46,915 nucleotides of DNA, taken from the NCBI GenBank assembly GCA_026705565.1, contig JAPPAJ010000050.1, forward strand, positions 1 through 46,915, written 5' to 3'. Position numbers and translations under genes: made by a program. The notes under the pieces are model-generated. The model had not been told where the DNA came from. It saw nothing but the letters and a program-made list of their open reading frames with translations, and searched no databases. How positions within the stretch are numbered: the first letter of the stretch is position 1; the number at the start of each line of letters is the position of its first letter. Positions 4,702 through 40,792 of the stretch are shown here, piece after piece. This stretch comes from Caldilineaceae bacterium (GTDB lineage Bacteria; Chloroflexota; Anaerolineae; Caldilineales; Caldilineaceae).

Positions 4702-5697
4702 ATGGACGACAAACAGCGGCAACTCGGTGAAGCGGCGGCGCAGCGCGACTGGGTCAATGGCATCACGCGTTACCCGGACCCCGCGGTGGAGGTTGTGGAC
4801 GACAGTTTCCGGAAATACATCAACGCCAATGCCGCCCTGGAGCGGCTGTGGACCGGTGCCAGGTGGACCGAGGGGCCGGTTTGGTTCGGCGACCGGAACA
4901 GCCTGCTGTTCAGCGACATTCCCAACAACCGCATCATGTGCTGGCATGCGCCATCGGGCCAGACCTCTGTCTATCGGGAGCCCTCCAACAACACCAACGG
5001 ACACACCCGGGATCGCGAGGGACGCTTGGTTTCCTGCGAGCACCGGACGCGCCGCGTCACGCGCACGGAGCATGACGGCTCCGTCACCGTGCTGGCCGAT
5101 TCCTACCAGGGAAAACGCCTCAACGCGCCCAACGACGTGGTGGTCAAGTCCGACGGCAGCGTGTGGTTCACGGATCCCGGCTACGGCATCCTGCACAACT
5201 ACGAAGGCGGAGTTGCGGAATCCGAGCTTCCGACCAACGTGTATCGCCTGGATCCCCTGTCGGGACGGCTTGAAGCGGTCGTTACCGACTTTGCCAAGCC
5301 GAACGGCCTCTGCTTCTCCCCCGATGAATCACTCCTCTACATCAGCGATACGGCCACCAGCCACGATCCGGATGGCAATGCCCACATCCGAGTGTTTGAG
5401 GTTGATGGTGACTCGGTACGCGGCGGCCGGGAGTTTGTGGACATGCGTCCGGCGGTGTCCGACGGGTTCCGGGCAGACATGGACGGCAACATCTGGACCA
5501 GTTCCGGCTGGGCCGGCCCGGGCCTGGACGGAGTGCAGGTGTTCAACCCGGCCGGAGACCTCATTGGCCGCATCCACCTGCCGGAAATCTGTGCCAACGT
5601 CTGCTTCGGCGGTCCCCACCGCAACCGGCTGTTCATGATGGGCAGCCAGTCGGTCTACCACCTGTGGACAGAAGCAATCGGGGCACAGCGTCCGTAG
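4702..5697 (+). CDS. SMP-30/gluconolactonase family lactonase
   Basis: A 331-aa six-bladed beta-propeller metal-dependent lactonase of the SMP-30/gluconolactonase/LRE group, which opens sugar or related lactones. Likely metal ligands by family pattern are Glu57 (TEGPVWFG), Asn144 (APNDVVV), Asn201 (KPNGLCFSPD) and Asp255 (VSDGFRADMDGNIW). The N-terminus has no signal peptide, so it is cytoplasmic. An AAGGA-like site lies upstream of the ATG. It ends in TAG, showing that TAG is an ordinary stop here. AT-rich DNA starts directly after the stop, and a degraded copy of this gene's 3' end lies about 14.3 kb away at 19915-20022. Confidence 0.9.
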   Translation: MDDKQRQLGEAAAQRDWVNGITRYPDPAVEVVDDSFRKYINANAALERLWTGARWTEGPVWFGDRNSLLFSDIPNNRIMCWHAPSGQTSVYREPSNNTNGHTRDREGRLVSCEHRTRRVTRTEHDGSVTVLADSYQGKRLNAPNDVVVKSDGSVWFTDPGYGILHNYEGGVAESELPTNVYRLDPLSGRLEAVVTDFAKPNGLCFSPDESLLYISDTATSHDPDGNAHIRVFEVDGDSVRGGREFVDMRPAVSDGFRADMDGNIWTSSGWAGPGLDGVQVFNPAGDLIGRIHLPEICANVCFGGPHRNRLFMMGSQSVYHLWTEAIGAQRP

Positions 5698-5890
5698 AAT
5701 AGTCAATATTCCATCGGCCCGCGGACGAAGCTCCCCATCTCTTATCAACAATAACCCAATCATGCCCTCACAATTCACGCTCAATTGAAAATCACATTTA
5801 TTTCCAAATTTCACTGCCCATCAAGGACCACAATACCAACGCACGTCCCACAGTCTCAGAAGTTCTGCAACAATTCAAGTTGACATCATC
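5698..5890. other. AT-rich intergenic junction
   Basis: The region between the lactonase stop and the DUF262 gene is much richer in A and T than the preceding 5.7 kb. It begins with a short inverted repeat (gaata/tattc around 5698-5712) directly after the stop codon. No gene is seen. It marks the left edge of the accessory region. Confidence 0.5.
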
Positions 5891-7492
5891 ATGAAACACA
5901 GCCAACCAACTGCCGCTTCAATTGTCAAGTCTGCCCACGATGGGGAGTTCGCTGTCCCAGAATTCCAACGCGGCTTCGTATGGACTGTTGGCAAAGTTCG
6001 AGAACTCGCCGACTCCCTGACACGCAATTTCCCTGTTGGCAGCATCCTGACATGGAAATCCAGCACTGCCATCCAGCGAGGTGACGCCGACACGACCAGC
6101 CAAAAATCTTGGATAATTGACGGCCAACAACGAACCACAGCGCTGTGTACCTTACTAGGCGACCGCCCAGCGTGGTGGGACAGCAACAACCGTACTTGGA
6201 CCGACCATTTGAACGCCTTTGATGTGCGTCTCGACATCGGAGAAAACGATTGGACATTCGTCACTCGCAAATCGCTTGCTGGTCGTTACATCCGAGTCAG
6301 AGACATATTGAACTCGGATGACTTGTATGCTCTAGCTAAAGAACTTGCTCACGGCGGCCATGCATTCACATCAAACATAAGCGTTCTTGCAAACCACTTA
6401 CAAGCAGTGGCTAAGATCAAGGATGCGATTCTACCTAATGTCGAGATCGACGATACTATTGAACTAACTGAAGTTGCCGAAATTTTTAAACGGTTAAATT
6501 CTACAGGAACACGAATCAAGCAGGCAGACATTTATCTGGGAGTGGTCGCATCTAGAAATCCTGGTTGGGTTAATAGAAACTTCCTTAAATTCATTAGAGA
6601 GCTTGACACACAGGGGTTTGATCTTGAACCATCATTTTTGTTTCGAACATTTACAGGAATTGGAGCTGGAAAGAGTAGATTTCGCAACATTGATCAAGGA
6701 TTTTGGGAGAATCTTGACGGCAGCCCAGCTTGGGAAAAAACACAAAGAGCGCTATTGTCAGTGTGCCAAGGACTCCGCCAATTTGGAATTATAAATTCCA
6801 GGCTAGCTTTGAGCTCTAACGCTATCGTTGCTGCAGCGGTGTATCGGGCTCAGTTTCCAGAAGGATCTTTTGGACCAATTTTATCATGGATGTTGAATTC
6901 TGTTAAAGAAGGGTTTTTTAGTGGTCCAACAGAAACAAAGATGGACCGAGTGATAAGTATTGTGCGCAATTCAGTCTCCAAGGATGATGCCTTGAACGGT
7001 TTGCACTCTCTTTTATTGAACAATTCACCAGTGTTTACTCCAGAAGAATTTGTCGAGACAGGCAGCCGTCGCAACTCCGTACAAAGACTGATGATATATC
7101 TCATTGCATTCAAAAATGATGCCCAAGATTGGAACACAGACGGGTACAAAATCAGGGCAGAAGCAGTAGGCAGCTATGCACCTGAGTGGCATCATATTTT
7201 TCCTCGCAAGTGGCTCAGTGACAATTTATCCATCGTCGATGACAATACCATTGACTCAGTTGCAAACATGGCAGTGATTAGTGGAGAAGCAAATCGGAAA
7301 ATCGCCACTAGGTCGCCCAAGGAATACGTCGCCGATCTCGACCTGGCGTCCCGGGGACTGTTAGATCAACAGGCGGTACCTGATCCTACATATGTTGAAC
7401 CGTCTCAATATGAAGATTGGCTCCGTAACAGGGCGAAATGGCTTGCGAAACAATCCAATGACTACTTAACAAAATTCCTCAGTAACGGTTGA
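5891..7492 (+). CDS. DUF262 + C-terminal HNH-type nuclease protein (GmrSD-like)
   Basis: A 533-aa protein with an N-terminal DUF262 domain and a C-terminal HNH-like domain. DUF262 carries the nucleotide-handling motif IIDGQQRTTAL (Asp77-Arg81). The C-terminal EWHHIFPRKWL (His434, His435), with later Asn459 and Asn468, fits the DUF1524/HNH pattern of GmrSD-type Type IV restriction enzymes and related defence proteins. Such proteins cut modified or foreign DNA (family knowledge); the target here is unknown. It is a single gene with no methyltransferase next to it. Base composition is clearly more AT-rich than its neighbours, which suggests recent transfer. No strong Shine-Dalgarno sequence precedes the ATG. 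Confidence 0.87.
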   Translation: MKHSQPTAASIVKSAHDGEFAVPEFQRGFVWTVGKVRELADSLTRNFPVGSILTWKSSTAIQRGDADTTSQKSWIIDGQQRTTALCTLLGDRPAWWDSNNRTWTDHLNAFDVRLDIGENDWTFVTRKSLAGRYIRVRDILNSDDLYALAKELAHGGHAFTSNISVLANHLQAVAKIKDAILPNVEIDDTIELTEVAEIFKRLNSTGTRIKQADIYLGVVASRNPGWVNRNFLKFIRELDTQGFDLEPSFLFRTFTGIGAGKSRFRNIDQGFWENLDGSPAWEKTQRALLSVCQGLRQFGIINSRLALSSNAIVAAAVYRAQFPEGSFGPILSWMLNSVKEGFFSGPTETKMDRVISIVRNSVSKDDALNGLHSLLLNNSPVFTPEEFVETGSRRNSVQRLMIYLIAFKNDAQDWNTDGYKIRAEAVGSYAPEWHHIFPRKWLSDNLSIVDDNTIDSVANMAVISGEANRKIATRSPKEYVADLDLASRGLLDQQAVPDPTYVEPSQYEDWLRNRAKWLAKQSNDYLTKFLSNG

Positions 7493-7502
7493 TTCTCTTC
7501 CG

Positions 7503-7862
7503 AGTGTGTGAATTCTTAGTATAGAGGTGAGTTGCGGGCTGCCGGGACGCCAGTCTTCCCAAGACCACTGCCCAAGTTGGAGTGCGATTGCCCTGCTAGG
7601 GTACCCCAGCATTGTGAACGGCAAGGTCCCAGTCGGCCGATTTCCCGATGAGCCTCACTCCTACTTTGACTACCGCGGCTCATATTCAAATCGCGTGCCT
7701 TTCGCCTGCTGTGCCCTCGTGGGCGGGGCCGGTAAGGTGCACTGCCGCGTCAAACAGAATCTGGCAACCCGCAGCGAGATCCTCAGGGGTTACACTCTCG
7801 ATTTCGTTGTGGCTGATGCCGTCCTTGCTGGGCACAAAGTTCAAGGCCATAGGTGCAACCTA
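7503..7862. repeat. Left copy of ~355-bp direct repeat (M20 3' end and downstream)
   Basis: This segment matches 17057-17412 in the same orientation across its whole length with scattered substitutions and a few indels (alignment by eye). It contains the last 58 codons of an M20 amidohydrolase (minus strand) plus about 180 bases beyond its stop. Similarity ends near 7862, where transposon-related sequence begins, and near 7503, eleven bases after the DUF262 stop. In both copies the minus strand of the non-M20 part can be read as a short fragment like LDLAVDNAGTP, reminiscent of short-chain dehydrogenases, but this is weak. Confidence 0.85.
7686..7861 (-). pseudogene. Truncated C-terminus of M20 amidohydrolase
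   Basis: Reading the minus strand gives 58 uninterrupted codons ending in GERHAI and a stop, including the metal-ligand segment KDGISHNEIES. They align without gaps with the C-terminus of the intact M20 enzyme at 17233-18498. The rest of the gene is missing; the break at about 7861 adjoins the decayed transposase region. The frame is preserved although the fragment has no start, which suggests fairly recent truncation or recombination with the intact copy. Confidence 0.8.
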
Positions 7863-7939
7863 TTAGTGCAACGAAACTTTGAGAGGCAGAATTCCGGTGT
7901 TTGGATTCCCTCAGTTCCCGCCTCCCCATATCCCTAGCC

Positions 7940-9292
7940 GCCGCCCCCGTGTCCCTGCCCGACGTCTCCCTGAACCGCGCCGACATCGCCTCGGTGCGCG
8001 GACGGCTGCGGGCCTACTAGGCGTGCTACGCGCCCTTCTTTGGTCGGCGTGAACTGCGAGGGCACACCCGCACCTACTTGCAGGGGCTGCTCAGCGACGA
8101 GCCGCGCAAGTCGGTCGAGCGCATGGTCCTGCGGCTGCGCGGGGCCGACGCCAATGCCGTGCGCACGCAGCAGCTGTTCCTGAGTCAGGCGCGCTGGGTC
8201 GACGCCCCCATCCTGGCGGTGCACCGGGAACTGGTGGCGGCCACGCTGGGCGAGGAGGGCGTGCTGACCATCGACGGCACCGACATCCTCAAGGACGGGC
8301 ACGAGTCGGTGGGAGTGGCGCGCTAGTACTGCGGCCAGCTGGACAAGAGCGCCAACTGCCAGGCGGCGGTTTTCGCGGCCTACCTGGGGCGCGGGACGGC
8401 AGCCCTAGTGGACCGGCGGCTGTATCTGTCCCGGAAGTGGATCTCGGGGGCCAGCCATGCGGTCCGGCGGCGGAGGACCGGGGTGCCAGCAGGCACGCCC
8501 TTCCGCACCAAGCCGCAGCTGGCCCTGGACATGCTGACCACCCTGGTGGCCGAGGGCTCACTGCCGCTGCGTTGGGTGACCTGCGACGAGGGCTTCAGCG
8601 TCAGCCCCGCCTTCCTCGACGGCGTGGCCGGCCTAGGGCTGGGCTACTTGGCCGAAGTGGCCCGCAACTCCCATGTCTGGCCCGCGCGCCTGCAGACGGG
8701 CGGGTCCCCCTCGCAGGAAGTGGGTACCGTGGCCGACTAACTTCCGCCTTCGGCTTGGCAGCCCTTTGTCCTGCGGGAGGGCTCCAAGGGCCCGCAGGCG
8801 GTCCTCTGCGCCGTCCGGCGCGTGGTGGCCCGACGCGGCCTCTTTCCCGGCCCCGACATCTGGTTGCTGCTGCGCCGTAACCCTGCCACCGACGAGCTCA
8901 AGTGCTATCTCTCCAATGGTCCCACGGACCTGGCCCCGGAGCAGCTGGTGTGGCTAGCCGGTCTGCACTAGCCCATTGACCCATTGAGCAGTGCTTCCGG
9001 GACGGCAAGCAGCTTTTGGGGCTGGGCGACTACGAGGACCGCAGCTGGCACCGCCATGCCACCCTCGTCATGCTGGCCTACTTCTTCGTGGTGCGGGAGA
9101 CGCTGCGGCTCAAAAAAGCACCCCGGCCTGACCGTGCCCCAGACCTGTCTGCTGGTGGATGCGGCCCTGCCCCGCACCGACTCCCCGACCGACCGCGCCT
9201 GCGACATCGTGCGGGCGCGCAACGCGGCCGCTCACCGTTCCCATGCCCAGCGCCGACGGCGGTACTGCGAGTACCTGTTCCGAATTCCTGGC
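7940..9292 (+). pseudogene. IS701-like DDE transposase, decayed
   Basis: Conceptual translation in one frame resembles IS701-family transposases: ACYAPFFGRRELR, TIDGTDILKDGHESVGVAR, WVTCDEGFSVSPAFLDGV and CFRDGKQLLGLGDYEDRSW hold the expected DDE-type segments. Lesions visible along the frame are TAG at 8018-8020, TAG at 8324-8326 (where the family usually has Gln), TAA at 8738-8740, TAG at 8969-8971, a tandem 8-bp duplication (cccattga at 8972-8979 and 8980-8987) that shifts the frame, and another shift in an A-run near 9110-9117. The insertion is long dead. Terminal inverted repeats were not identified. It lies between the truncated M20 fragment and the HigBA module. Confidence 0.85.
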
Positions 9293-9331
9293 TCTGCTTC
9301 TTCTGTCCTTCCGCACCTGTATCACGGAGTC

Positions 9332-10426
9332 CTAGCTTTCCAGCAGTTCTGCTTTTGCCTTTAAGTGGTTGAGCAAGGATTTGGAAATGAATCGCTCGTA
9401 TTGGAGCCGCCCAACGACGATTCCCGGTGCAACGCCGATATCGGCAGCGAAGCTTGACACGGAAGCTTCGACGAACTCTCCCGCCAATATGAAGTCCTGC
9501 CAGACATCCTGAGGAATCAGGAAATCGCCTGCCCACTCATTGGCTTGGCGCTCCTGCTCACAGCCATTCTTGAGAACTGCCTCGTCAAGGAAGATGCTGC
9601 TGCGATTCTTTACGCGATGGAGGATCAGGTGAGCCGCTTCGTGGAAGAAGGTGAACCAGATGTGATCGTTGGTCTTGTGCCGTCCACTCAATTGGATGAC
9701 TGCCTTGTGTGGCCCCACCCAGCGCGCAGCACCACTCAGATGGGTATGGGGCAACAACGGAACGACGACAAGGGCGACACCGGCTTCGCGGCAAAGACGC
9801 GCGGCCTCTTGAAGCGCGTCATTCAGCGGTACACGTGTCAAACCCCTGATGCGGGCCAATACGGAACGGAATCTTTGGTCATCAAAATGGTCACACTGCG
9901 TTTCCAGTGACTGGAGTTCCCCTAGGCGCAACCAAGTAGCGAATGCTGGCGCCTTGCTCTTGAAACTCGGGGAGTGCCGGTACGCGACATGGGCTTCAGC
10001 GTACCGACGATTCCAGGCTTCTACACTTGCCACACCAAAGAAGGTCAAGAGTTGTTCGACCTTGTCCGCGCTTGACCTCGGCGCGTCGATCATCCCGCGC
10101 GCAGCAAGCTTGGATACAGGGAATTGCCTGGCCCATTCCTCGGCGTCGGATGCTGCTCGAGCTTCCGCTTCGCGTGCCAGGAACAGGCGGTAGGATGCTT
10201 CGAGGTTCAACCAGATGTTCGCGTCCAAGCCGAGCACCTTTTCGAACTGCAGTGCCGTCTCCGGTTCGATGGGTGCCTTGCCATTGACGATCTCGCTGAT
10301 CAATTTTGCCGACCGGCCGCATCGGCGCGCGAGCTCCGCTTGGTTCATGCCCATGAACTCCATGTGTTCGGACACGATTTCGCCGGGAACGACCGTATAG
10401 TCTGGCTGGAAAGGGTAGAAGGCCAT
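9332..10426 (-). CDS. higA: HigA-type antitoxin with ImmA/IrrE-like metallopeptidase domain
   Basis: A 364-aa protein with an N-terminal XRE helix-turn-helix (about residues 15-75; MNQAELARRCGRSAKLISEIVNGK) fused to an ImmA/IrrE-type domain with the zinc-protease motif HEAAH at residues 262-266 and a downstream Glu in EQERQANEWAGDFLIP. It follows the HigB-like toxin gene by 19 bases on the same strand, the usual toxin-first order of higBA. The HTH should bind the operator near the toxin start, and the peptidase-like part may aid toxin or repressor turnover (inference). The start at 10426 was chosen over upstream codons because it begins the family-typical N-terminus and avoids overlap with the toxin. 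Confidence 0.88.
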   Translation of the reverse strand: MAFYPFQPDYTVVPGEIVSEHMEFMGMNQAELARRCGRSAKLISEIVNGKAPIEPETALQFEKVLGLDANIWLNLEASYRLFLAREAEARAASDAEEWARQFPVSKLAARGMIDAPRSSADKVEQLLTFFGVASVEAWNRRYAEAHVAYRHSPSFKSKAPAFATWLRLGELQSLETQCDHFDDQRFRSVLARIRGLTRVPLNDALQEAARLCREAGVALVVVPLLPHTHLSGAARWVGPHKAVIQLSGRHKTNDHIWFTFFHEAAHLILHRVKNRSSIFLDEAVLKNGCEQERQANEWAGDFLIPQDVWQDFILAGEFVEASVSSFAADIGVAPGIVVGRLQYERFISKSLLNHLKAKAELLES

Positions 10427-10445
10427 ATGCTGCTCTGCAGAAAGC

Positions 10446-10784
10446 TCACTGGTGGGTATCCAAAATGCCAATGACGGTGATGTCCGTGACGCGTGTCCTG
10501 TCGATACCGCCATCATGCGTGGTCGGGACAGGTTCATGGTTCGGAACAAATACAAGCCTGTAGGGATGAACCAGATCAACGCTGAACTGACCTGCACGAT
10601 CACCGAAGAGCTGGTGAAGCCTGAGCGGTCCCCTGGGCGGAATCTGCGACAGATTGTCAGCAGCCTCGAGTACCAAGAGGCGCCGTTGGATCAGCTTTGC
10701 CATCCGCGCACCGTATGTTGCCTCGAGCTTGCGCGTATCGTTCACGACTCGTTGGAGTTTCCTCTGCCTAAACGTGATAACCAT
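10446..10784 (-). CDS. higB: HigB/RelE-superfamily toxin
   Basis: A 112-aa basic protein of the plasmid-maintenance killer type: MVITFRQRKLQRVVND at the start, LRLHQLFGDRAGQFSVDL in the middle and PYRLVFVP near the end, as in RelE-fold mRNA interferases. HigB toxins cleave mRNA on the ribosome (family knowledge). The ATG at 10784 gives the normal family start. An upstream in-frame start at 10805 would add seven residues and lies inside the proposed operator. The gene appears intact and is paired with the large HigA-like antitoxin just downstream. Confidence 0.85.
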   Translation of the reverse strand: MVITFRQRKLQRVVNDTRKLEATYGARMAKLIQRRLLVLEAADNLSQIPPRGPLRLHQLFGDRAGQFSVDLVHPYRLVFVPNHEPVPTTHDGGIDRTRVTDITVIGILDTHQ

Positions 10785-11069: not shown

Positions 11070-11870
11070 TCAACGCTGATCTCTCTGCTCTGTTCCTCCT
11101 GAGGCGAGGTTTTCATCAATCTCGAATAGATCAGGTGTAGTACGGCGAACGCCGATACCGTGCTCCATCAGAAGCATCACAAGCTGCTCGCCGTCCATAA
11201 GCGCGATGGGGGTCTTGTCAGCCTGCTGGGCCTCTTGGACCGCCCCTTTACTGAAATTGCTGGTAGTGACTATCAGGCCCTGCTCATGGGCACCCAGACT
11301 GCCGCGGACCTGCTGCACCACTGGTGACTGGACATTGCCCTGCCACCTCTTGACCTGGACTGCCATCCGGATGCGGATCACATCCCCTACCACCAGGGTT
11401 CCCCGTACATCAATGCCCCTGTCGCCCCCCAGCGCCGAAACCTCGACGCTTTCGAACCCCATCGCTGCCAGCACCTGAGCCATCAGTTCCTCAAATGCTT
11501 GTGGTGACAGGGCTAGGAGTTGCTTCCGCAAGGCCTGCCGTACCTGCTGGTTGTGCTGCTCGATCAGAGAGACCAAGCCCGGATCCTGCCTCTGGTTCAA
11601 ACTGAAATAACCCCGACCATGCTGGACAAAGCACTGCGGTTCCCCCCGCGCCTGTTGGCGCTTGATCGCTGTGACGATTTGGGCATGCATGGTGTTCTCA
11701 GGCGTTTTGCCTGCCGTGACCAGCCAACCTTGCCTACGCGCCTGCTCCGTGATGTCCACATAGTGCATTGGCTGATCACCGCTAAATTCTTCCAAGACCT
11801 TTTGGGCACAGTCCAAGAAGGTCAATCCGCCGTTGGATGGGATCATCGGCACGGATGTTTCGTCGGACAC
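11070..11870 (-). CDS. Mrr-like restriction endonuclease with N-terminal HARE-HTH domain
   Basis: A 266-aa protein. Residues 16-92 resemble the HARE-HTH (winged helix) domain often fused to restriction nucleases (AQKVLEEFSG, GKTPENTMHAQIVTAIK, GRGYFSL). Residues 118-230 form an Mrr-type PD-(D/E)xK nuclease domain: Glu128 in FEELMAQVLAAMGFE, Asp154 in GGDRGIDVRG and QVK at 172-174. Mrr proteins cut methylated or otherwise modified DNA (family knowledge). It sits in a run of accessory genes and looks intact. The next gene upstream on this strand is a broken methyltransferase, but that one resembles a small-molecule methyltransferase, so a restriction-modification pairing is unlikely. Confidence 0.87.
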   Translation of the reverse strand: MSDETSVPMIPSNGGLTFLDCAQKVLEEFSGDQPMHYVDITEQARRQGWLVTAGKTPENTMHAQIVTAIKRQQARGEPQCFVQHGRGYFSLNQRQDPGLVSLIEQHNQQVRQALRKQLLALSPQAFEELMAQVLAAMGFESVEVSALGGDRGIDVRGTLVVGDVIRIRMAVQVKRWQGNVQSPVVQQVRGSLGAHEQGLIVTTSNFSKGAVQEAQQADKTPIALMDGEQLVMLLMEHGIGVRRTTPDLFEIDENLASGGTEQRDQR

Positions 11871-13363: not shown

Positions 13364-13852
13364 TTACTCCTCAACATTGCGGCTCAATGCCCAGGAGTCG
13401 GCCCAACTCTCAGGAATTGGGAAACCGCAGGCATAGATGAAGTTGATTAGTTGGCCGTGATGGTGGGCCTCATGTTCTGCCAAGCGCAAGTATCCCAACA
13501 AAGGTGAAGTGTCATTGCCGAATACCTTAAGCCATTCAACTTGCTCGAAAGTTGAATATAGTTTCCCATCGGCTTTCATCATCGCCTCCCGAATCCTCTC
13601 CATGGGCACCGCTTCGTCTGGTTCAACAGACTGCAAACTACAGTCCCATCCCTTCATTCTTCCTTCCAGCAGTACCGGTGCCCAGCTTTCCTGCGTACCC
13701 AGCATACAGCGGAACTGATAGAACACGTCCTGGGATTCCTGAAATGGTAACCGGGCTTTCAAGTCGGCATCCGACAAAACATCCATCAGATCGTAGGTGC
13801 GACCTCGCAAGTCTTGCCAGTGCTGCTGAACACCCTCCAAGATAGTCTGCAT
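13364..13852 (-). CDS. DinB-like four-helix-bundle protein
   Basis: A 162-aa protein of the DinB/YfiT superfamily, which binds a divalent metal with three histidines and often catalyses thiol transfer or has unknown roles. Candidate ligands are the early His in EGVQQHWQDLRGRTYDLMD and the HEAHHHGQLINFIYACG cluster near residue 133. The start at 13852 is preceded by GGAAGGGGAG; an in-frame upstream start at 13882 is less likely. The gene looks intact and stands alone. An extended -10 element is visible upstream. Confidence 0.82.
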   Translation of the reverse strand: MQTILEGVQQHWQDLRGRTYDLMDVLSDADLKARLPFQESQDVFYQFRCMLGTQESWAPVLLEGRMKGWDCSLQSVEPDEAVPMERIREAMMKADGKLYSTFEQVEWLKVFGNDTSPLLGYLRLAEHEAHHHGQLINFIYACGFPIPESWADSWALSRNVEE

Positions 13853-13894
13853 GATTAAGCCAACTCCCCTTCCAAGAGACAAAATTTGGCATAA

Positions 13895-14511: not shown

Positions 14512-14514
14512 GTT

Positions 14515-14843: not shown

Positions 14844-14851
14844 GCAGATAT

Positions 14852-16910: not shown

Positions 16911-17056
16911 CTCTTCCTCCTGACTGTACCAAGGACCGATTCTACCTCTGACCGGACGCCTTCCAGTCCAGAACAAGCGCATTCCATGTCAATGAGTCCG
17001 CGGAACAGTCCGAACCGGTTCCACTCGGGCTATCCGAGCATGGCTACGATGCTCCA
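16911..17056. other. Intergenic region
   Basis: About 150 bases upstream of the Uma2 gene. A short stem (ctcgg/ccgag near 17025-17040) is the only structure noticed. Confidence 0.35.
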
Positions 17057-17412
17057 ATAGTGTGAATTTCCAGTACGAAGGTGAGTTTTTGGTTGCCGGC
17101 ACACCGGTCTCCCCCAGACCATCACCCAAATTGGACTGCGACTGCCCTACTGGGGTCCCAGCATTGTCAACGGCAAGGTCCAGCCGGCCGATTTCCCCGA
17201 TGAACCGCACCTTTGACTGTCACGCCCTTTCTTCAAATCGCATGCCTTTCGCCTGTCGTGGTCTCGCGGGCGGGGCCGGCAAGGTGCACTGCCGCGTCAA
17301 ACAGAACCTGGCAACCCGCGGCGAGGTCCTCAGGGGTTGCACTCTCGATTTCGTTGTGGCTGATGCCATCCTTGCAGGGCACGAAGATCATGGCCGTAGG
17401 TGAAACCTGTGC
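17057..17412. repeat. Right copy of ~355-bp direct repeat
   Basis: Matches 7503-7862 in the same orientation. It covers the last ~60 codons of the intact M20 gene and ~175 bases beyond its stop. Together the two copies bracket about 9.2 kb of accessory DNA (7863-17056) that homologous recombination could remove. Confidence 0.85.
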
Positions 17413-19846: not shown

Positions 19847-19914
19847 CCACCTCTACCGAGTGCACCAACGGAATCCTGGTCCGTTGGCATCGGACAGGAC
19901 TGGCAGTGAACCAA

Positions 19915-20022: not shown

Positions 20023-20097
20023 GTCCGCCTCCCGAACGTTGTATTGCTGCTATGTTCATTTATTCAACTGTCAACATCCACGTGGGAAAAGATTGTC

Positions 20098-32699: not shown

Positions 32700-33764
32700 A
32701 TGGAACAGGCAAACAACGGCCACGCCCCGGCCCCGGTCGACACGGACGAGGTCCTGCTCGAGATCAAGGACCTCAAGACCCACTTCTTCCTGGACCAGGG
32801 TGTTGTGCACGCCTTGGAAGGTGTGGACTTCACCGTCAACCGCGGCCAGACCATCGGCCTGGTGGGCGAATCGGGCTGCGGCAAGTCGGTGACGGCCCGG
32901 TCCATCCTGTCGATTGTGCCACCGCCCGGCCGGGTCGTGCAGGGCGAGATCCTCTTCCACCGGGCCCCGACCGCGGACCGACCCGGCGAAACCGTGGACA
33001 TGGCCCAGCTCGATCCCAAGGGCTCGCTGGCCCGGTCCATCCGCGGCGGCGACATTTCCATGGTCTTCCAGGAGCCGATGACTTCATTGAGCCCGGTCCA
33101 CACGATCGGGGCCCAGATCATCGAGGCCATCTCTCTGCACCGGGACTGTTCGCAAGAGGAGGCCGCGGAGATCACGGTCGAGATGCTGCGGCGGGTCAAC
33201 CTGCCCCAGCCGGAGGGAGTCCTCAAGCGCTATCCCCACGAGCTTTCCGGCGGCATGCGGCAGCGCGTGATGATTGCCATGGCCCTGTCGTGCCAGCCCA
33301 GCCTGCTGATTGCCGACGAGCCGACCACTGCCCTGGATGTCACCACCCAGGCCCAAATCCTGACCCTGATGCAGGAGCTCCAGGAAGAGTTCGGAATGGC
33401 CATCATCTTCATCACCCACGACCTGGGCGTAATCGCCCAGATGGTGGACTACGTGGTGGTCATGTACCTGGGCGAAGTGGTCGAAATGGCCGACGTCAAC
33501 TCGATCTTCTACGACCCCAAGCATCCCTATACGCGGTCGCTGCTGCACTCCATTCCCAAGCTGGGCCGGAAGTCCGTGGAAGGCCTGACCAGCCGCCTGA
33601 CCGCCATTCACGGGGTCGTGCCCGATCCCTACTCCATCCCCAAGGGCTGCCCCTACCACCCGCGCTGCCACGATGCCGTGCGGGGGGTCTGCGACACGGA
33701 CAATCCGACCCTACACACGCTGCCGGGAGACCACAAGGTCCGCTGCGTCCTCTATGACGACTGA
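32700..33764 (+). CDS. ABC transporter ATP-binding protein, DppD/OppD type
   Basis: A 354-aa ATPase. Walker A is [18 protein letters not shown], the Q-loop is in [13 protein letters not shown], the signature is [18 protein letters not shown], Walker B is [14 protein letters not shown] and the H-loop is [10 protein letters not shown]. The C-terminal oligopeptide/dipeptide transporter motif with an iron-sulfur-type Cys pattern ([16 protein letters not shown]) is present. The ATG at 32700 follows the permease by 22 bases. The second ATPase (DppF type) usually found next is absent; the next gene overlaps this one by 11 bases. Confidence 0.93.
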
Positions 33765-36354
33765 TCCGGGCCGGGCGGCGGAACCGGCGACCAGGACCCT
33801 GCTGCCGGCCCTGGAGCCGGACGAGCGCGGCTTCATCCGGGAGTGGCTGTTCTGCGGTCCCCGCCTTCGGACACTGTCCGATTCCATTGCGCCCGGTCTG
33901 TCGGAAGCCGAATTCCGTCGGACAGCGGCTGACCGGATCCACAGCACGGATCCCGGCATCCAGGGGCCCTTCGTCGAGTTTGCCAGTCCCTTTCCGGACG
34001 ACAAGCCCCTGCGCTGGCAGGTGGTCCGGGTACGGGAGGACCGCTTCCTCTACGGCACGGTCTTTGCCCACACGCCGCACTCGGTCCACTGCTGGGCCAT
34101 CGCCCATGCGGAACTGAAGGAGGACTGGTCGGGAGAGATCCGGCTTACGTCGAACGGACCGGCGGACGTCTGGGTCAATGGCAGCCACACCTGGCAAGTG
34201 GACCACTTCTCCCTACAGGCACCGGTCACGGCGACCGGCCGTCTGGACCTGCCGGCCGGCCAAGTCGAACTTCTGGTGCGGTTTACCGCGATTGCACTGC
34301 GGGCCTCCCCCATGGTCATGGCCCTGCAGTTACCCGATCCGCCGGCGGCCGCCTGGTTTGTGCCGGTGGATTCCCGGTGGGCCGAGGAACACCGGGAGTT
34401 CTCCGAGGTCCTGGATGACGCCTACCTGAACCGAAGCGCCTTCGACCGCGCAGCCCCGGTAACGCTGCACTGGCCGGAAACCAAGCCACTGGAGCGTGAC
34501 CTTGTGGTCCGCCTGCAACGGACCGACGGGCGCATCTACTCCGAGCAGCAGACCCAGGGCCGCAAGCTGCCTTTCATGACCCTGGGCAACACCTACCAGT
34601 ACCCCCAGGACGAGTACGAGATTCTGGTGCTGCCCCCACTGATGGAGTACTACACGCACAACCGGCGGCACTTTCGCCGGTTCTCGGCCTGGCTCAACGG
34701 CAACGTGGCCTATTCGGATCGCCACTTCGGTACCTGGAGCCAACGCCGCGAGGAGGCGTTGCGGCATGCGGCGGCGGAAAAGGGCACCGTCTTCCACGAA
34801 ATGGCCCGCCTGGAGCTGGACCAGTGGGACAAGGTGGACTGGGAGCAGTTTCGCACGACCGCCGGCGAGATCGCCGGCCGGGCCGACTGCAGCGACTTCC
34901 ACCTGACCGGCATCCTGGGCTGCCTCCATCGCTGGGGGGACGCATCGGAATTCCCGGCGGATCTTCGCAACGAGCTGCGGGAGGTAATCCTGGGCTTCCG
35001 CTACTGGATGGACGAACCGGGGCAGGACGCCATGTGCTTCTGGACCGAGAACCACCAGATCCTGTTCCACACCTGCGAAGTCCTGGCCGGCCAGCTCTAT
35101 CCCCGCCACCGCTTCGGCAACAGCGGCCTGACCGGTGCCGAACACAGGGTCCTGGGCGAACAACGCGCCCTGGCCTGGCTGCGCAAACGGGCCGCCAGCG
35201 GCTTCCGCGAGTGGGACTCCAACACCTACTTTGAAGAGGATGTCCTGGCGCTTACGCACCTGGCCGATCTGGCGGAGGACGAAACGGTCCATGAAATGGC
35301 CGTGGTGGTGCTCGACAAGATGTTCTTCTGCATGGCAGTCAACTCGTACCGCGGGGTGTTCGGTTCCACCCACGGCCGCAGCTACGCCCCCTATCTCAAG
35401 GCCGCCTACCGCGAGCCCACATCGGGCCTGGGGCGCATGCTATGGGGCATGGGCATGCACAATGACCATGTGCTGGGCACCGTGTCGCTGGCCTGTGCCG
35501 TCAACTACCGCCTACCGCCCGTAATCGAAGCCATCGCCCGCGATCCGGCAGCGGAAATCTGGAGTCGGGAGCGGCATGCCGGGGAACTCGAGCCGGAACT
35601 GGATCGCGAGGCCGGTGCCTGGGAAGTCAACAAGGCCACCTTCCGCACCCCCGACTACATGCTGGCGGCCGCCCAGGACCACCGGCCCGGCGAACCGGGT
35701 GTGCAGGAGCACATCTGGCAGGCCACCCTGTCCCCGGAGGCCGTGGTCTTCGTCACGCATCCGCCGCTGACCAGCGAAGACGGCTCCCATCGTCCCAACT
35801 ACTGGCACGGCCATGTGCGACTGCCCAGGGTGGCACAGGACCGGGACGTTCTCTTCGCCCTGCACGATCTGGGCGAGGACGACTGGATGGGCTTCACGCA
35901 CGCCCATTTTCCGGCCCAAGCCTTCGACGCCTACTACATCCAGCGAAACTGGGCCTTCGGCATGAAGGGCAACGGCTATCTGGCACTGACGGCGTCGGCC
36001 CCGCTGCGCATGGCGCAAACCGGCCCGACGGCCCGGCAGGACCTGCGGGCGGCAGGCTCCCAGGTGGTCTGGACGCTGCAGATGGGCCGCCGCGAACAGG
36101 ACGGCGAGTTCAGGGACTTCCGCGCCCGCGTGCTGGAGCTGCCGCTGGAGGTAGAGGGGCTGGATGTCCGCTTCGAGAGCCTGCGCGGCGACCGCTATGA
36201 GTTTGGCTGGACCGGCCCGCTCCTGAAGAACGGTGAAGAGGTTCCGCTGTCAGGCTACCCCCACATCGACAATCCCTACACAGCCATCCCGCTCAACGCC
36301 GAGAGCATGGAGATCCAGTTTCAGGATCTCCTGCTGCGGCTACACATGACCTAG
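33754..36354 (+). CDS. Uncharacterised 866-aa protein, possible (alpha/alpha)-toroid glycan-active enzyme
   Basis: No named family was recognised with certainty. The N-terminal ~250 residues look beta-rich (a jelly-roll-like WAIAHAELKEDWSGEIRLTS region). Residues ~350-640 are helical with FWTENHQILFHTCEVLAG (Glu432, Asn433, His434) and FGSTHGRSYAPYLK (His540, Tyr544). The C-terminus is beta-rich again. This order and the Asn/His plus His/Tyr pattern resemble toroid-type polysaccharide lyases or glycosidases. No signal peptide, so it is cytoplasmic. It starts inside the ATPase gene (11-base overlap), so it is translationally coupled to the importer and probably acts on the imported compound. 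Confidence 0.75.
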   Translation: MTTDPGRAAEPATRTLLPALEPDERGFIREWLFCGPRLRTLSDSIAPGLSEAEFRRTAADRIHSTDPGIQGPFVEFASPFPDDKPLRWQVVRVREDRFLYGTVFAHTPHSVHCWAIAHAELKEDWSGEIRLTSNGPADVWVNGSHTWQVDHFSLQAPVTATGRLDLPAGQVELLVRFTAIALRASPMVMALQLPDPPAAAWFVPVDSRWAEEHREFSEVLDDAYLNRSAFDRAAPVTLHWPETKPLERDLVVRLQRTDGRIYSEQQTQGRKLPFMTLGNTYQYPQDEYEILVLPPLMEYYTHNRRHFRRFSAWLNGNVAYSDRHFGTWSQRREEALRHAAAEKGTVFHEMARLELDQWDKVDWEQFRTTAGEIAGRADCSDFHLTGILGCLHRWGDASEFPADLRNELREVILGFRYWMDEPGQDAMCFWTENHQILFHTCEVLAGQLYPRHRFGNSGLTGAEHRVLGEQRALAWLRKRAASGFREWDSNTYFEEDVLALTHLADLAEDETVHEMAVVVLDKMFFCMAVNSYRGVFGSTHGRSYAPYLKAAYREPTSGLGRMLWGMGMHNDHVLGTVSLACAVNYRLPPVIEAIARDPAAEIWSRERHAGELEPELDREAGAWEVNKATFRTPDYMLAAAQDHRPGEPGVQEHIWQATLSPEAVVFVTHPPLTSEDGSHRPNYWHGHVRLPRVAQDRDVLFALHDLGEDDWMGFTHAHFPAQAFDAYYIQRNWAFGMKGNGYLALTASAPLRMAQTGPTARQDLRAAGSQVVWTLQMGRREQDGEFRDFRARVLELPLEVEGLDVRFESLRGDRYEFGWTGPLLKNGEEVPLSGYPHIDNPYTAIPLNAESMEIQFQDLLLRLHMT

Positions 36355-36403: not shown

Positions 36404-36802
36404 TCAATTGGCCTGCTGCGGAACAAAACCAGACGCAATCCGTCGCTTCTGGCCGGTTGAGGGGATTTCAGACCCCTTGGCATTGATGCGGAGTCGGCCT
36501 TGTCGCTCCAATTGGCTCTGGTGAACGACAATGTCCACATCGTGGCCCAGTGCCGTCAGTAGACGCAGAAGCCGCTCCAAGGAGAACTCCCGGAAATTCC
36601 CTCTCAGCAGGCGCGACACATCGGGTTGAGACAGCCCAAGCAGTTTTGCCGCCTCGACCTGCTTGAGGCCGCGCTCCCGAATGATCATTTCGATGCGCGT
36701 AACCAGCTCGGCCTTGAGCAGGTGGGCATCGGCATCCGGAAGCCCTAAGTCGGCGAAAACGTTGCCACTACCCCGTTCGATCTTCACGTTGTTGGACTTC
36801 AT
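36404..36802 (-). CDS. XRE-family antitoxin of a HigBA-like pair
   Basis: A 132-aa protein with a helix-turn-helix at about residues 35-90: RGLKQVEAAKLLGLSQPDVSRLLRGNFREFSLERLLRLLTALG, typical of antitoxins paired with Gp49-like toxins. It follows the toxin on the same strand. Two starts are possible: ATG at 36802, and ATG at 36820, which would overlap the toxin's end; the first has GGAG upstream at suitable spacing. The C-terminal tail (about 40 residues, basic) is longer than usual. Confidence 0.85.
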   Translation of the reverse strand: MKSNNVKIERGSGNVFADLGLPDADAHLLKAELVTRIEMIIRERGLKQVEAAKLLGLSQPDVSRLLRGNFREFSLERLLRLLTALGHDVDIVVHQSQLERQGRLRINAKGSEIPSTGQKRRIASGFVPQQAN

Positions 36803-36806
36803 CGTT

Positions 36807-37175
36807 CTATTCTCCGCCATAGTTCTCACGGTAGTGTTGCTCCGCAACTCTGAGCCTACGCCTTATCAGGGCGATCTCCGGCTTAGGAGTTGCGATGCCC
36901 CGCCTAGCCTTCTTCTGGAACACGTGCAGCACATAAACGACGGCCTTGAACCGGACTGTGTACACCGCTCGGAAAGCATCCCCGTCGTGACGCGAAACCA
37001 CCTCAAGGACATTGCTGCCCAAACCCTTGAGTGACTTGACGTGACGGTGTCTGAGTCCAACTTGGGCTTGATAGAGAGCAAAGCCAACCACGTCCTGCAC
37101 ATCCTCCGGAAACGTCTTGAGATCCGCCTTGCTGGAACCAACCCATTCAACCGGCTTAGGTTTCTCCATGGCCAT
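36807..37175 (-). CDS. RelE/HigB-superfamily (phage-derived Gp49-like) toxin
   Basis: A 122-aa basic protein: VEWVGSSKADLKTFPEDVQDVVGFALYQAQ at the N-terminus, VKSLKGLGSNVLEVVSRHDGDAFRAVYTVRF in the middle and VYVLHVFQKKARRGIATPKPEI near the end, the classic HigB/Gp49 pattern of an mRNA interferase. It appears intact. It has two in-frame ATGs (37175 and 37169). A promoter upstream places transcription start at about the first ATG, so translation is probably leaderless. The antitoxin follows directly. Confidence 0.87.
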   Translation of the reverse strand: MAMEKPKPVEWVGSSKADLKTFPEDVQDVVGFALYQAQVGLRHRHVKSLKGLGSNVLEVVSRHDGDAFRAVYTVRFKAVVYVLHVFQKKARRGIATPKPEIALIRRRLRVAEQHYRENYGGE

Positions 37176-37180
37176 GCCAA

Positions 37181-37209: not shown

Positions 37210-37816
37210 GCCGTTTCTTGCATAACCACTTGTTTCGGTTTTGTTCGGCCGTGTTAGCAGAGCAGCGGTAGAACATCATGCATTGCCCAATGGGGCTGCA
37301 TCAGTCTTGTTGGTTACACCGCTTGGCGCGCTGGGGCCCGCGCGGCACTCAAGGTTGGAGCACCATAGCCATGGCTTGTTTTGCCAAGCTACTGGCGAAG
37401 GAAACCATTGGTCGTTCAGGAAGCAAAGCACCGTTGCTTGGCACTCCCGGGAGAGCAAGGCTATATATTAGAGTCGCGCCGGTACCAGCGAAGGTCAACT
37501 CCCCGCAGACGACAGGCTTCGGCAAGAATTGGGTGGTTGGCAAAACGATCCGTGCCACCCGACCGCGTCAACGTTCTGACGCTGCCACATGGCAATCGAC
37601 AATGGCCATACGGACAATCACCAGCCACACCAATCCGGGACGGCAACATCCCGCAGTGTGCCGTAGCAGATCAACCAGGTCGCACTGTTTCACACTGCTG
37701 GAACAGGCTACCGTCCCCATGCCAACCCAACGCCGGGACTGGGAGACTTCCGCCCCCCGGCCCGGCATCGGAAAAGTCTCGTCCCCTGAGAGTTCCCAGA
37801 GAGCCAACTGATCCCG
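37210..37816. other. 607-bp region with a gene remnant, otherwise nothing recognised
   Basis: Open frames on both strands show no recognisable product. It contains the degraded small-membrane-protein 3' end described separately (37555-37660). Confidence 0.5.
37555..37660 (-). pseudogene. Degraded 3' end of the small membrane protein gene
   Basis: Matches 40575-40665 in the same orientation: gacg(c/t)tgccacatggcaa is nearly identical, aatcaccagcca and ccggga(c/t)ggc are shared, and similarity continues past the stop (cccgaccgc). The minus strand reads GLVWLVIVRMAIV, then after a one-base shift MWQRQN, compared with GWLWLVILVVAIVAMWQRRN in the intact protein. Only the last third is recognisable. 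Confidence 0.6.
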
Positions 37817-39943
37817 TCAGAACCGGGACAACGACTCCGCCAACTGTTGGAACCGCGGTTTATCGACACCACTTAAGAGGTTCCGCAACACCCGATCTGC
37901 ATGACGCGATCCATCCGCGATGCGATGTGCCAACAGTGCCAACACGAACTGCATAGGCGTCAGCCCCAGTTGGGTCGCCGCCTGCTTCACCAAGTCCAGT
38001 TCCACCAGTTCGTTGATGGTCTCGCGCACCCATTCATCTTCCCTGTCCAACGTTCCTTGAACCAGATCGGAGGCATGCGTATCCCAGTGAATGCCGCGGG
38101 CCAACGCGCTGGAGAGCAGAAGGGACAGGGAAGATGACCACGGCTCGCTCTCCTTTGCCTCCGGATCAAGGAAGGTCCGCAACGAGAACCTGGAGCGTGC
38201 CTTCCGAGAATGGGCGGACGCGGAGAATTTGGCTGTCCCGGGGCTTTCAGCCGACGGCGAAAGGTGACCATGCGGAACTTGGCTCCCACCGTAGTGTAGC
38301 CGTCCCAGGCTCGCTGGAGCAGCAAAGGCAGTTGGGGGCGCGTGCAGGACCAGAGAGCGCGGAGTAGGAATGGATATCTTGACTGTGTCGGGCAACTGAT
38401 CTCCGTCCACCGCGGCATCCGTAACCAGTACCAAGCTGGTCACATGGGTGGTGAGGCCCTCCTTGACGGCCAGGTTCGCGGCCTCATCTTCCGGCAGTGC
38501 GGGCAACAGGAGGCCAGCAAACAAGGCACCCACCGCCCGGCTGATCCGATCCTCTGCCGCCGGTGCTTCCGCGGACGATACAATCCGGATGTCGACGCCG
38601 TTGCGGTTGGCCTCCAGAGAGACAAGACCGTCTTCCCCCGCGGCTTCTCGTTGCAATGCAACCCGATGAGGTTGGCGTAGACCCTGTGTCACCGTCCGCA
38701 ACGCGACACCGACGTCCACCCCTCGGACATAATGGAGAGCCCCACCGGTCATGGCTGCCAGATGGCCCACCTTGGCTTCCAGGGAAGCCTCCCCCACGAG
38801 CAGGACGGAGATGCGCCTGCCCTGACCGGCCAGGCCATGGACATCCAATGCGTAGCTCTGTCCATCGGTAACCAGAAGAATGTCCCGGGTCTCGGTATTG
38901 TGTATCACGGTATCAAGGGCTCCGCCTATTTCCGTGCCACCGCCTGGACCCTGTAGTTGCCGTACCAATCCGTGCCAGTCCCGGGACGCAACCGGCTGGC
39001 CGGTGCCGACCGGGGTACAGGACGTGTCGAATTCCCATAGCGCCAGACGATCATCCGAACGCAGGACCTCGCCCAAGTCCGCCAATCCCTGTTGCGCAGC
39101 GGCGTGGGTTGACGCATCCGACAATCCGGACCCTTCACACAGGCTTGCCATGGAACCGGATCGATCCAACAGCACGGCAACATCCAAGTTGGCCTGGCCT
39201 GAGGCCGCTGGTTGCAGGTTCATCGTCACGGACTGGTGAGCTGCAGTCCAGCCCGCCACAACCGCCTGTGGCCAGTCGCTCACCTCAAGGTCAATGGGAG
39301 CATCGGCCGGCACGGCACCCGCCCAACCGGATGTGTTGCCATCCGTTGTACCCAATCCGCGCACGTGCACGGATCCGGCATCGCTTGTGACAGACAGGGA
39401 TGTTGGCACGGCTTCGCCGCCATGGGTGGGCTCATCCACGGCCTCGCCGGAGAACGTGCCATACACGTCGCCAACCGTGAGCGGTATCCGGTAATGTCCG
39501 TTGCATCCGTCGGCATGCAGGATGTCGGTCCAACGGCTTGTCACTTCAATCTCGGCCCCTGGTGCCAGATTGGCGACCGACAGGCTGTGAACGCCTTTCA
39601 GAACTTCCGCATGCAGCACTGCCGTCCGGCCTTCATCGACTGCATCCTCGTATCGCTCCGCAGCCTTCACTTTGACCAGCGCCTGTCCCTTGTAGATCTG
39701 GTTGTCCAATCGCACTTCCAGATCATGGAAGACCGCACCGACCGGCACCGGGAACGACATTACGGCCTCAATGGGGCGTTCGCTGTCGTTGCGGTAGGTG
39801 CGTACCGTCTCCGCGGCCACCAGTGCACTGACAATCTCCACCCGGATGTCGATGGTCCGCAGAGGCATCGCCTGCTGCTCCCCGCCATGGTATGTCGCCA
39901 CAATTTGCTCAATCGGATTCAGTCGGGCTGGGGCTTTCTTCAT
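37817..39943 (-). CDS. VIT and von Willebrand factor A domain protein
   Basis: A 708-aa protein. Residues ~5-135 form a VIT (vault/inter-alpha-trypsin) domain: YRNDSERPIEAVMSFPVPVGAVFHDLEV, KVKAAERYEDAVDEG. Residues ~255-430 are a vWA domain with a complete MIDAS: DRSGSMASL (DxSxS), a Thr in GGGTEIGGAL and the Asp of LLVTDGQ. The C-terminal ~200 residues are less conserved and end in a helical part. No signal peptide or membrane anchor is visible, so it is probably cytoplasmic. It overlaps the upstream MerR gene by 35 bases, so the two form an operon. VIT/vWA proteins mediate metal-dependent protein contacts (family knowledge); the partner is unknown. Confidence 0.88.
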   Translation of the reverse strand: MKKAPARLNPIEQIVATYHGGEQQAMPLRTIDIRVEIVSALVAAETVRTYRNDSERPIEAVMSFPVPVGAVFHDLEVRLDNQIYKGQALVKVKAAERYEDAVDEGRTAVLHAEVLKGVHSLSVANLAPGAEIEVTSRWTDILHADGCNGHYRIPLTVGDVYGTFSGEAVDEPTHGGEAVPTSLSVTSDAGSVHVRGLGTTDGNTSGWAGAVPADAPIDLEVSDWPQAVVAGWTAAHQSVTMNLQPAASGQANLDVAVLLDRSGSMASLCEGSGLSDASTHAAAQQGLADLGEVLRSDDRLALWEFDTSCTPVGTGQPVASRDWHGLVRQLQGPGGGTEIGGALDTVIHNTETRDILLVTDGQSYALDVHGLAGQGRRISVLLVGEASLEAKVGHLAAMTGGALHYVRGVDVGVALRTVTQGLRQPHRVALQREAAGEDGLVSLEANRNGVDIRIVSSAEAPAAEDRISRAVGALFAGLLLPALPEDEAANLAVKEGLTTHVTSLVLVTDAAVDGDQLPDTVKISIPTPRSLVLHAPPTAFAAPASLGRLHYGGSQVPHGHLSPSAESPGTAKFSASAHSRKARSRFSLRTFLDPEAKESEPWSSSLSLLLSSALARGIHWDTHASDLVQGTLDREDEWVRETINELVELDLVKQAATQLGLTPMQFVLALLAHRIADGSRHADRVLRNLLSGVDKPRFQQLAESLSRF

Positions 39944-40295
39944 GTATCGCTCCTTGAGCCTTAACGTGTTGTAGCAGGCACTGTTGCAGGTGCCGAACCA
40001 GAACCTGCAGGTCGGTATCGTTGTCCGCCAGAAGACCGGGATCCACCAGCAGGGCCACCCCCGGCATGAGGGGAATGGGCACCCCGGCCTCCATCTCCAT
40101 CAGAATGCGGATGGAAGCTGGTGCAAAACCCATCTCCTTCAACTGCTGATAGCGCCGAACGGCCTGCACATGCCGGTCGTCGTACCGGGCATGGGCCCGC
40201 CCGCCTGTGGGCGGGGGCACGATGTTCTCGGATATCAGGTATCGCACCTGCCGGGCCGAGACCCCGGTCAACCGGCACAGATCCGGCAGCTTCAT
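39909..40295 (-). CDS. MerR-family regulator paired with VIT/vWA gene
   Basis: A 128-aa protein with a MerR winged helix at residues 1-70 (LPDLCRLTGVSARQVRYLISENIVPPPTGG, then RHVQAVRRYQQLKEMGFAPASIRILME). A short effector part (VPIPLMPGVALLVDPGLL) follows, with no Cys-rich metal site. AGGAGG seven bases before the ATG at 40295 fixes the start. Its end overlaps the start of the VIT/vWA gene by 35 bases, so the two proteins are likely functionally linked. A promoter with a symmetrical site between the -35 and -10 boxes lies directly upstream, as expected for self-regulation. Confidence 0.87.
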   Translation of the reverse strand: MKLPDLCRLTGVSARQVRYLISENIVPPPTGGRAHARYDDRHVQAVRRYQQLKEMGFAPASIRILMEMEAGVPIPLMPGVALLVDPGLLADNDTDLQVLVRHLQQCLLQHVKAQGAIHEESPSPTESD

Positions 40296-40301
40296 GTCCC
40301 A

Positions 40302-40343
40302 CCTCCTGATCATGATTGTGGATCAGGAGGTTTGTTTTGTCAA
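40302..40343 (-). promoter_or_regulatory. MerR-type promoter-operator including the Shine-Dalgarno sequence
   Basis: Minus strand: TTGACA (40338-40343), 17 bases, then CACAAT (40315-40320). A perfect 10-bp inverted repeat, cctcctgatc (40302-40311) and gatcaggagg (40321-40330), has a nine-base spacer. One arm fills part of the -35/-10 spacer; the other contains the AGGAGG ribosome-binding site of the MerR gene. Confidence 0.68.
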
Positions 40344-40588
40344 ACTATTTGTCGAAAGGGTGCTGTTGCCATACAGCTTGGCAATACCTTCCAAGCCGCG
40401 GCGCGACTCCTCTGGTCAACGGGTCAATGGCCGACCGACAACCGCGGCAGACACAGGCCACCAACCGGGCCTCCGTCCCCGCCTCTACCCGGTAGCCCCG
40501 ACGCATCAAGCTCCCAGCGATGGGGAAGGAAAAGGCCATCACTCCGCGCCCGGTTGGACCCGGAGCCGGACGGCTCCCGACCGCATCT

Positions 40589-40792
40589 TCAATTCCGACG
40601 TTGCCACATGGCAACAATTGCAACCACAAGAATCACCAGCCAGAGCCAGCCCGGGATGGCGGCAAACAGACCGAACACAGCGGAAATCACCCCGCCGAGG
40701 ATGCCCAGGAACGCGCCGAAGGCGACGAGGACCACGAAAGCAAGGAGCAGGGCCACGAAGCAGCCACTGCAGGAAAGGAGGGATTCGTCCAT
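40589..40792 (-). CDS. Small two-helix membrane protein
   Basis: A 67-aa protein with two hydrophobic segments: roughly residues 10-42 (CFVALLLAFVVLVAFGAFLG and following Gly/Val-rich stretch) and 46-62 (IPGWLWLVILVVAIVAMW), ending in QRRN. The start at 40792 has AGGAG just upstream. No function recognised. A degraded copy of its 3' end lies about 3 kb downstream, beyond the MerR-VIT/vWA unit, on the same strand. Confidence 0.6.
   Translation of the reverse strand: MDESLLSCSGCFVALLLAFVVLVAFGAFLGILGGVISAVFGLFAAIPGWLWLVILVVAIVAMWQRRN

Follow-up and report, generated by a model that had tools for sequence, protein, structure and literature searches.

The 46,915-nucleotide stretch of Caldilineaceae DNA considered here (contig JAPPAJ010000050.1; hereafter the window) includes two sites between convergent genes, one bounded by an SMP-30 and an M20 gene and the other by an 893-aa open reading frame (ORF) and a small membrane protein gene, and at these same two border sites four related genomes carry different cargo. 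On balance, we favour the view that both sites are hotspots without a visible integrase, at which alleles were added in series through one-sided recombination combined with illegitimate or transposon-assisted joining. The window is the entire contig C365 of the source genome G000 (4.55 Mb, 413 contigs). It was compared with three congeneric genomes, namely G001 (SB0661_bin_34) and G002 (Plut_88876), both Caldilineaceae/Caldilineales metagenome genomes, and G003 of the same genus; we presume that these Caldilineaceae are sponge-derived. The original prediction, made from the letters of the window, had described three unrelated genes, each followed by an insert and a displaced copy of its own 3' end, as possible scars of integrative elements.

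Hotspot 1 and its surroundings comprise the following features:

4702..5697, + strand: SMP-30/gluconolactonase-like gene, left border (Pfam SGL, E 3e-50; 97-98% in three congeners)
5891..7492, + strand: GmrSD (DUF262-type) restriction gene (Pfam GmrSD_N, 1e-27; PADLOC HEC-05, 2.5e-29)
7506..7862, - strand: M20 3' stub, 5' side cut at the left end of the transposon (~57 codons and ~173 bp of downstream flank)
7859..9283, + strand: decayed DDE_5 transposon (Pfam DDE_5, 3e-48, with X in place of in-frame stops; boundaries taken from other copies)
9332..10603, - strand: HTH and ImmA/IrrE-type (M78) gene (3' part only in the G003 locus, elsewhere in that locus)
11070..11870, - strand: HARE-HTH and Mrr restriction endonuclease (Pfam Mrr_cat, 3e-26; PADLOC)
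13364..13882, - strand: DinB-like gene, under the Pfam cut-off (matching DNA in 4/4 genomes)
15747..16982, - strand: Uma2-type putative endonuclease (Pfam Uma2, 4e-13; lacking at this site in G002)
17233..18498, - strand: intact M20 peptidase gene, right border (Pfam Peptidase_M20, 5e-26)
19912..20092, unstranded: 181-bp segment with an SMP-30-like piece (19934-19995), upstream of M20

The convergent SMP-30 (4702-5697, +) and M20 (17233-18498, -) genes enclose ~11.5, 4.5, 10.5 and 8.7 kb in G000, G001, G002 and G003, respectively. Homology to the window stops at 5698 in G001, 5696 in G002 and 5697 in G003, no more than two bases from the SMP-30 stop codon in any of the three, after 93-98% identity, and the DNA behind the stop differs among genomes except for the next 0.7 kb, which is common to G001 and G003. 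The interval of G000 runs GmrSD, M20 stub, transposon, HTH-ImmA, Mrr, DinB-like and Uma2. Where the window has 5698-13371, the corresponding DNA of G001 comprises ~0.9 kb, with window homology resuming at 13371; that of G002 encodes a different GmrSD-like gene and a type IIG-like gene, without Uma2; and that of G003 includes the Mrr block and the ImmA 3' part, the latter at another place. This HTH-ImmA 3' part (G003:C82, L117 5958-6632) lies on the opposite side of the DinB-like gene relative to the window. On the M20 side, the flank and Uma2 are common to G000, G001 and G003, and G002 alone diverges, from the last M20 codons on. The GmrSD gene has a guanine-cytosine (GC) content of 46% versus 62% for the window, by which we read it as foreign cargo, and a megablast search of 5698-17232 against a plasmid collection for a plasmid origin returned no match. 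M20 copies at 93-95% were found in the three congeners only among 61 genomes searched, with the next at 58%; several proteobacterial copies at 60-67% are among the matches listed.

Self-blastn of the window returned exactly three repeat pairs at E<=1e-3, the same ones as in the original prediction. Judged by its alignment, the M20 pair is real and strong: 7506-7861 matches 17060-17408 at 82.6% over 357 columns (E 4e-98), covering the final 176 bp of the gene and 173 bp downstream, and the displaced copy lies on the gene's strand 9,372 bp downstream of it, which bears out the predicted remnant ~9.4 kb away. A genome search with the M20 end found this copy as the sole second one (next best match E 0.03). 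The membrane-gene pair (37558-37644 versus 40576-40660, 73%, E 8e-5) covers approximately the last 72 bp of 40589-40870 on the - strand, and its copy lies 2,945 bp downstream, in agreement with the ~2.9 kb predicted. The SMP-30 pair (5608-5644 versus 19959-19995, 86.5% over 37 bp, E 8e-5) stretches loosely to 5580-5644/19934-19995 at 74%, with a spacing of 14.3 kb, and is present at the same place in G001. Beyond the stop codon, checked for copied original flank, the M20 copy runs on for 173 bp and then ends, and the membrane-gene copy continues for 13 bp. The chance level of such repeats was gauged by comparing the window with 1.81 Mb of other same-genus DNA, which gave 83 matches of >=45 bits; the transposon accounted for 20 and, sorted by eye, ABC-transporter or Uma2 genes for 58 of the 63 others. 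As the five left over by this sorting correspond to ~0.1 match per 47 kb, the membrane-gene and SMP-30 pairs, at 45.5 bits each, are weak but probably genuine.

The M20 stub shows no frameshift across its ~57 codons, with a single TAG at the cut edge. An outlier in coding sites, flank, site patterns and tree, it is not a recent copy of the G000 gene and must be ancient, of foreign origin, or both. Its coding sites match the G000 gene at 158 of 176, the G001 gene at 157 and the G003 gene at 153, with 170/176 between G000 and G001, and its flank matches that of G000 at 129/173, compared with 153/171 between G000 and G001. Site patterns of the 2:2 type number six for G000 and G001 against G003 and the stub, two joining the stub to G000 and one joining it to G001, and an unrooted tree groups the stub, on a long branch, with G003 (77% bootstrap). 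The G001 and G003 loci are without the stub. By comparison along the intact gene, the resident M20 end is the native one, with the displaced copy as outlier, because none of the six pairs among the four genomes shows an identity step near codon 364; identity falls in the last bin only in the three pairs with G002, whose final codons differ.

The stub begins 13 bp behind the GmrSD stop, and the tract 5698-7862 runs from the SMP-30 stop through GmrSD and M20 flank to M20 end. In this order it can be read as a full alternative version of the SMP-30/M20 interval whose sole cargo is GmrSD, and the rest of the island as a second such interval. We suggest that whole alternative interval alleles, each consisting of defence or toxin-antitoxin cargo and a border-gene end, would be stacked one behind another, the earlier allele being kept. 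An incoming allele would recombine by homology within one border gene and be joined illegitimately at the other side, and the seam would retain a truncated border gene. Since both borders are 3' ends, a seam would always consist of a 3' stub, lying downstream of the gene and in the same orientation. Serial addition would thus explain the position and orientation of these seams, and would need no integrase.

The stub directly abuts a transposase pseudogene that the original prediction overlooked. Translation of 7862-9340 gives a DDE_5 transposase with stops, from an element that we take to be IS701-like, of which copies and fragments occur at at least 16 (G000), 6 (G001), 22 (G002) and 28 (G003) places (lower bounds, with 40 candidates per genome scored and the window's own included). 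Other copies start with a CTAG-type sequence aligned to window 7859-7863, and M20 homology stops at 7861. The left end of the window copy is kept and its right end is lost at 9283; read by eye, all nine other right-end copies shown extend beyond this point with a similar motif. The simplest order would be insertion of the transposon in the second M20 copy at codon 364, followed by a deletion that took the transposon right end and the remainder of that copy. A right-hand join by transposon-to-transposon recombination was considered on account of a right-end piece of this insertion sequence (IS) ~40 bp behind SMP-30 in G003 (G3rc 3365-3540), and was dropped because window homology stops at 9283 and the DNA behind the IS is not shared.

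The second hotspot has the following features:

33673..36354, + strand: 893-aa ORF without a Pfam match, left border
36404..37175, - strand: HTH_37/Gp49-like pair, putative toxin-antitoxin (presumably HigAB-like)
37558..37644, - strand: 3' stub of the membrane gene, adjoined by the flank that the intact gene has in G001
37817..39943, - strand: VIT and VWA domain gene (Pfam; not at this site in G001, G002 and G003)
39909..40313, - strand: small regulator-like ORF (MerR-like by eye; we assume the name MerR)
40589..40870, - strand: intact small membrane protein gene, right border

Here too the 893-aa ORF (+) and the membrane gene (-) converge, and homology breaks within ~15 bp of the membrane gene's stop. 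G001 is without the VIT/VWA-MerR block (37645-40576) and has one membrane-gene end, whose positions 63611-63694 can be aligned to both window copies. Within the gene, this end agrees with the intact copy of the window (98.5% over 526 columns from the stop), and the DNA beyond its stop resembles the flank of the stub (71-74%). Because this single end carries the stub's flank, the VIT/VWA-MerR block, as compared across these loci, separates the membrane gene from a flank that adjoins it in G001. At this site, G002 and G003 have another common flank, with a PIN-type gene pair named by eye, which we take to be VapBC. At window 36807-37237, G001 is without most of the toxin-like partner of the HTH_37/Gp49 pair and retains nearly all of the antitoxin-like gene.

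The displaced SMP-30 piece of the window lies in the 181-bp segment, which is present in G000 and G001, absent from G003 and replaced in G002, and it appears to be older than the G000-specific cargo because G001 has it too. Two displaced SMP-30 pieces of its own occur in G003 behind the intact gene and on the same strand: piece A corresponds to window 5354-5491 (75%) and piece B to 5513-5694 (85.7%), the latter followed by ~32 bp matching DNA 21 bp further behind SMP-30 in G002. More than one origin of the displaced-end layout at this site is therefore probable, and we read piece B as indicating that a stub may carry the flank of another species' allele. Like the membrane-gene case, G003 can be read as stacked alleles too. 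An ancient empty site was sought in family relatives by looking for SMP-30 beside the downstream genes (PMT-like and PhyH) in 61- and 37-genome searches; among the family-level matches listed, none put SMP-30 on one contig with a PMT-like or PhyH gene, and since many of these genomes are fragmented, the piece cannot be dated below the genus.

The layout of intact gene, insert and displaced 3' end holds insofar as relatives are without the intervening DNA. For SMP-30, the predicted remnant 14.3 kb away is probably real as a 37-bp match but is not demonstrably the far edge of an insert: as the piece sits in a segment that G003 lacks and G002 replaces, no insert from SMP-30 to it is demonstrated. 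The comparison with relatives proposed in the original prediction did find smaller or empty sites: G001 has ~0.9 kb for 5698-13371 at hotspot 1 and is empty of 37645-40576 at hotspot 2. G003 shows the same layout at SMP-30, with its own pieces.

Several observations weigh against serial addition, which is itself inferred. Old local duplication followed by decay yields similar stubs. The M20 flank and Uma2 shared by G000, G001 and G003, and the 0.7 kb common to G001 and G003, indicate that turnover is incomplete at both borders. The simple allele SMP-30/GmrSD/M20 that the model predicts was not found in the three congeners compared, and neither was a donor. The SMP-30 piece at 19934-19995 is at no seam of either hotspot and is unexplained by the model, and the membrane-gene stub is without a transposon. 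With its flank, the latter is also more diverged (71-74% to G001) than the M20 flank (153/171). Furthermore, every genome is a draft assembly and was examined without reads.

The main rival, which we hold to be rather unlikely for these loci, is plain tandem duplication that starts or stops within a gene, with later decay and unrelated insertions. Such events would yield same-strand 3' pieces downstream or 5' pieces upstream, and their frequency was estimated from a sample of 99 stretches of the four genomes (2,051,467 bases, 1,454 predicted genes), leaving out 104 multicopy genes, genes with >5 matches and matches inside predicted genes, with pairs >=300 bp apart in the main tally. The sample includes 40 stretches from G000 and G003 that came from contigs named by earlier matches and are hence non-random; the G001 stretches are contigs C1-C57 and C59-C61 in order, with pieces of C58 and C69 chosen for their M20 matches. 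The gene finder used misses GmrSD, and the window SMP-30 pair falls outside the tally, presumably since its copy lies in a predicted ORF (19957-20400). Same-strand non-coding fragments of neighbour genes comprised 12 of 3' ends downstream, 3 of 3' ends upstream, 4 of 5' ends upstream and 4 of 5' ends downstream; others were internal (12) or full-length (2) on the same strand, or on the opposite strand (7).

Tandem duplication is found in this sample both ways (alignments of 776 columns in L201, 568 in L205, 426 in L259 and 682 in L279), and local pieces are far commoner than unlinked ones: a control in which G001 genes were compared with an unlinked stretch of their own genome gave 7 matches in 168 pairs. 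The genome-wide count of 3' against 5' fragments proposed in the original prediction pointed in the expected direction (12 versus 4) and was not decisive (p=0.077); without the four rows of the studied loci, the numbers were 8 and 4 (p=0.39), with three weak cases among the eight, namely L210 (27 bp), L218 (which has an opposite-strand match too) and L263 (tallied a second time as a 5' piece, of an ORF that overlaps it). A general 3' preference may exist but is not demonstrated. Against tandem duplication speak features of the individual stubs: the M20 stub differs more from the G000 gene than do the genes of G001 and G003, has few G000 states and is absent from the G001 and G003 loci; the membrane-gene stub has a G001-type flank and its intact gene a different one; and stub B of G003 bears a G002-type flank.

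Integrative elements at gene 3' ends make the end of the intact gene the newcomer and leave the displaced copy as the native one. They share with the present loci an intact gene, an insert and a displaced 3' end on the same strand, and site-specific recombination by such elements, with the gene restored, its old end displaced and the enzyme since lost, would also agree with window homology ending at the SMP-30 stop in three congeners and with the empty or smaller sites. We nonetheless regard this explanation as improbable. As the original prediction had noted, no integrase is visible: none of the 19 Phage_integrase (PF00589) matches in the four genomes is on window contig C365 or on G001:C69, G002:C99, G002:C73, G003:C82 or G003:C10, and PF07508, which does not cover every serine recombinase, had no match in the four genomes (resolvase-type and other recombinase families were not searched). 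Its proposal that elements entered and restored gene 3' ends is not supported by the M20 pair, for which this test was made and in which the resident end is the native one, with the displaced copy as outlier. In addition, the M20 repeat continues 173 bp beyond the stop, and the SMP-30 pieces begin at gene positions 653, 794 and 907 by blastn (decay may blur these starts), with no sign of a common core. On these sequence comparisons, integrase-type entry is not supported. A false assembly join of two strains' versions of the locus, prompted by the resemblance of 5698-7862 to a complete second interval version and by the 413 contigs of the genome, is very improbable, given that the window has no Ns, that the seam passes through a decayed, truncated transposon and that G003 has the same kind of stubs.

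Some further observations from the survey concern other loci. A CHAT-domain protein is encoded at the contig edge (window 12-2114). L262 (G001:C37) has a methionine-synthase-like gene (by eye; presumably MetH) at 11412-15173, of which the ~245-bp 3' end is repeated at 5609-5851, 5.6 kb downstream and past an ABC transporter. Transporter sequence follows this gene in G000, G002 and G003, and G002 and G003 also have parts of the stub (the G000 contig stops short of it); because transporter and stub parts thus occur in relatives, the arrangement is old and was not counted as an independent recent insertion. A cobalamin adenosyltransferase-like gene (by eye; CobO, we assume) at 4049-4642 of L199 (G001:C14) has its 3' third repeated at 53-254, 3.8 kb downstream and close to the contig end. 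The L234 stretch (G003:C30) has, at ~8670-10775, a tandem array of ~73-bp units, mostly 76-83% alike, that overlaps a predicted ORF; this array (gene 10560-10775) is outside the tally through the >5-match rule.

Serial addition has partial parallels in known systems. Oliveira et al. 2017 (PMC5635113) found no evidence of mobile elements in half of 1,841 hotspots and proposed double recombination at flanking core genes. Those hotspots likewise have fixed border genes, fast cargo turnover including defence genes and often no recognisable mobile element; as described there, recombination occurs at both borders, whereas alleles here seem to be serially added, leaving broken ends of border genes at the seams. 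Merodiploids arising in transformation, in which incoming DNA that is partly repeated in the chromosome and bordered by incomplete IS copies leads to duplications, are outlined in Johnston et al. 2013 (PMC3784515); they involve ~100-900 kb of recipient DNA, whereas the extra copy here is tiny and diverged. Homology-facilitated illegitimate recombination, as summarised in PMC3240628, combines homology at one end of incoming DNA with illegitimate joining at the other, and is an experimental process, whereas here it would be deduced from old junctions only. Narrow literature searches found no paper on border-gene stubs as seams, which is not a claim of absence from print.

More tentatively, defence islands between convergent genes may be able to grow by serial whole-allele addition without an integrase, each addition leaving a dated 3' border-gene seam. 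Many hotspots are without a visible mobile element. Border-gene stubs would be an easily counted mark for telling the addition of alleles from their replacement, one that could be scanned for in thousands of genomes, with the caution that such stubs should not be read as integrase scars. If this is true, the order and source of past acquisitions would be readable from the stubs.

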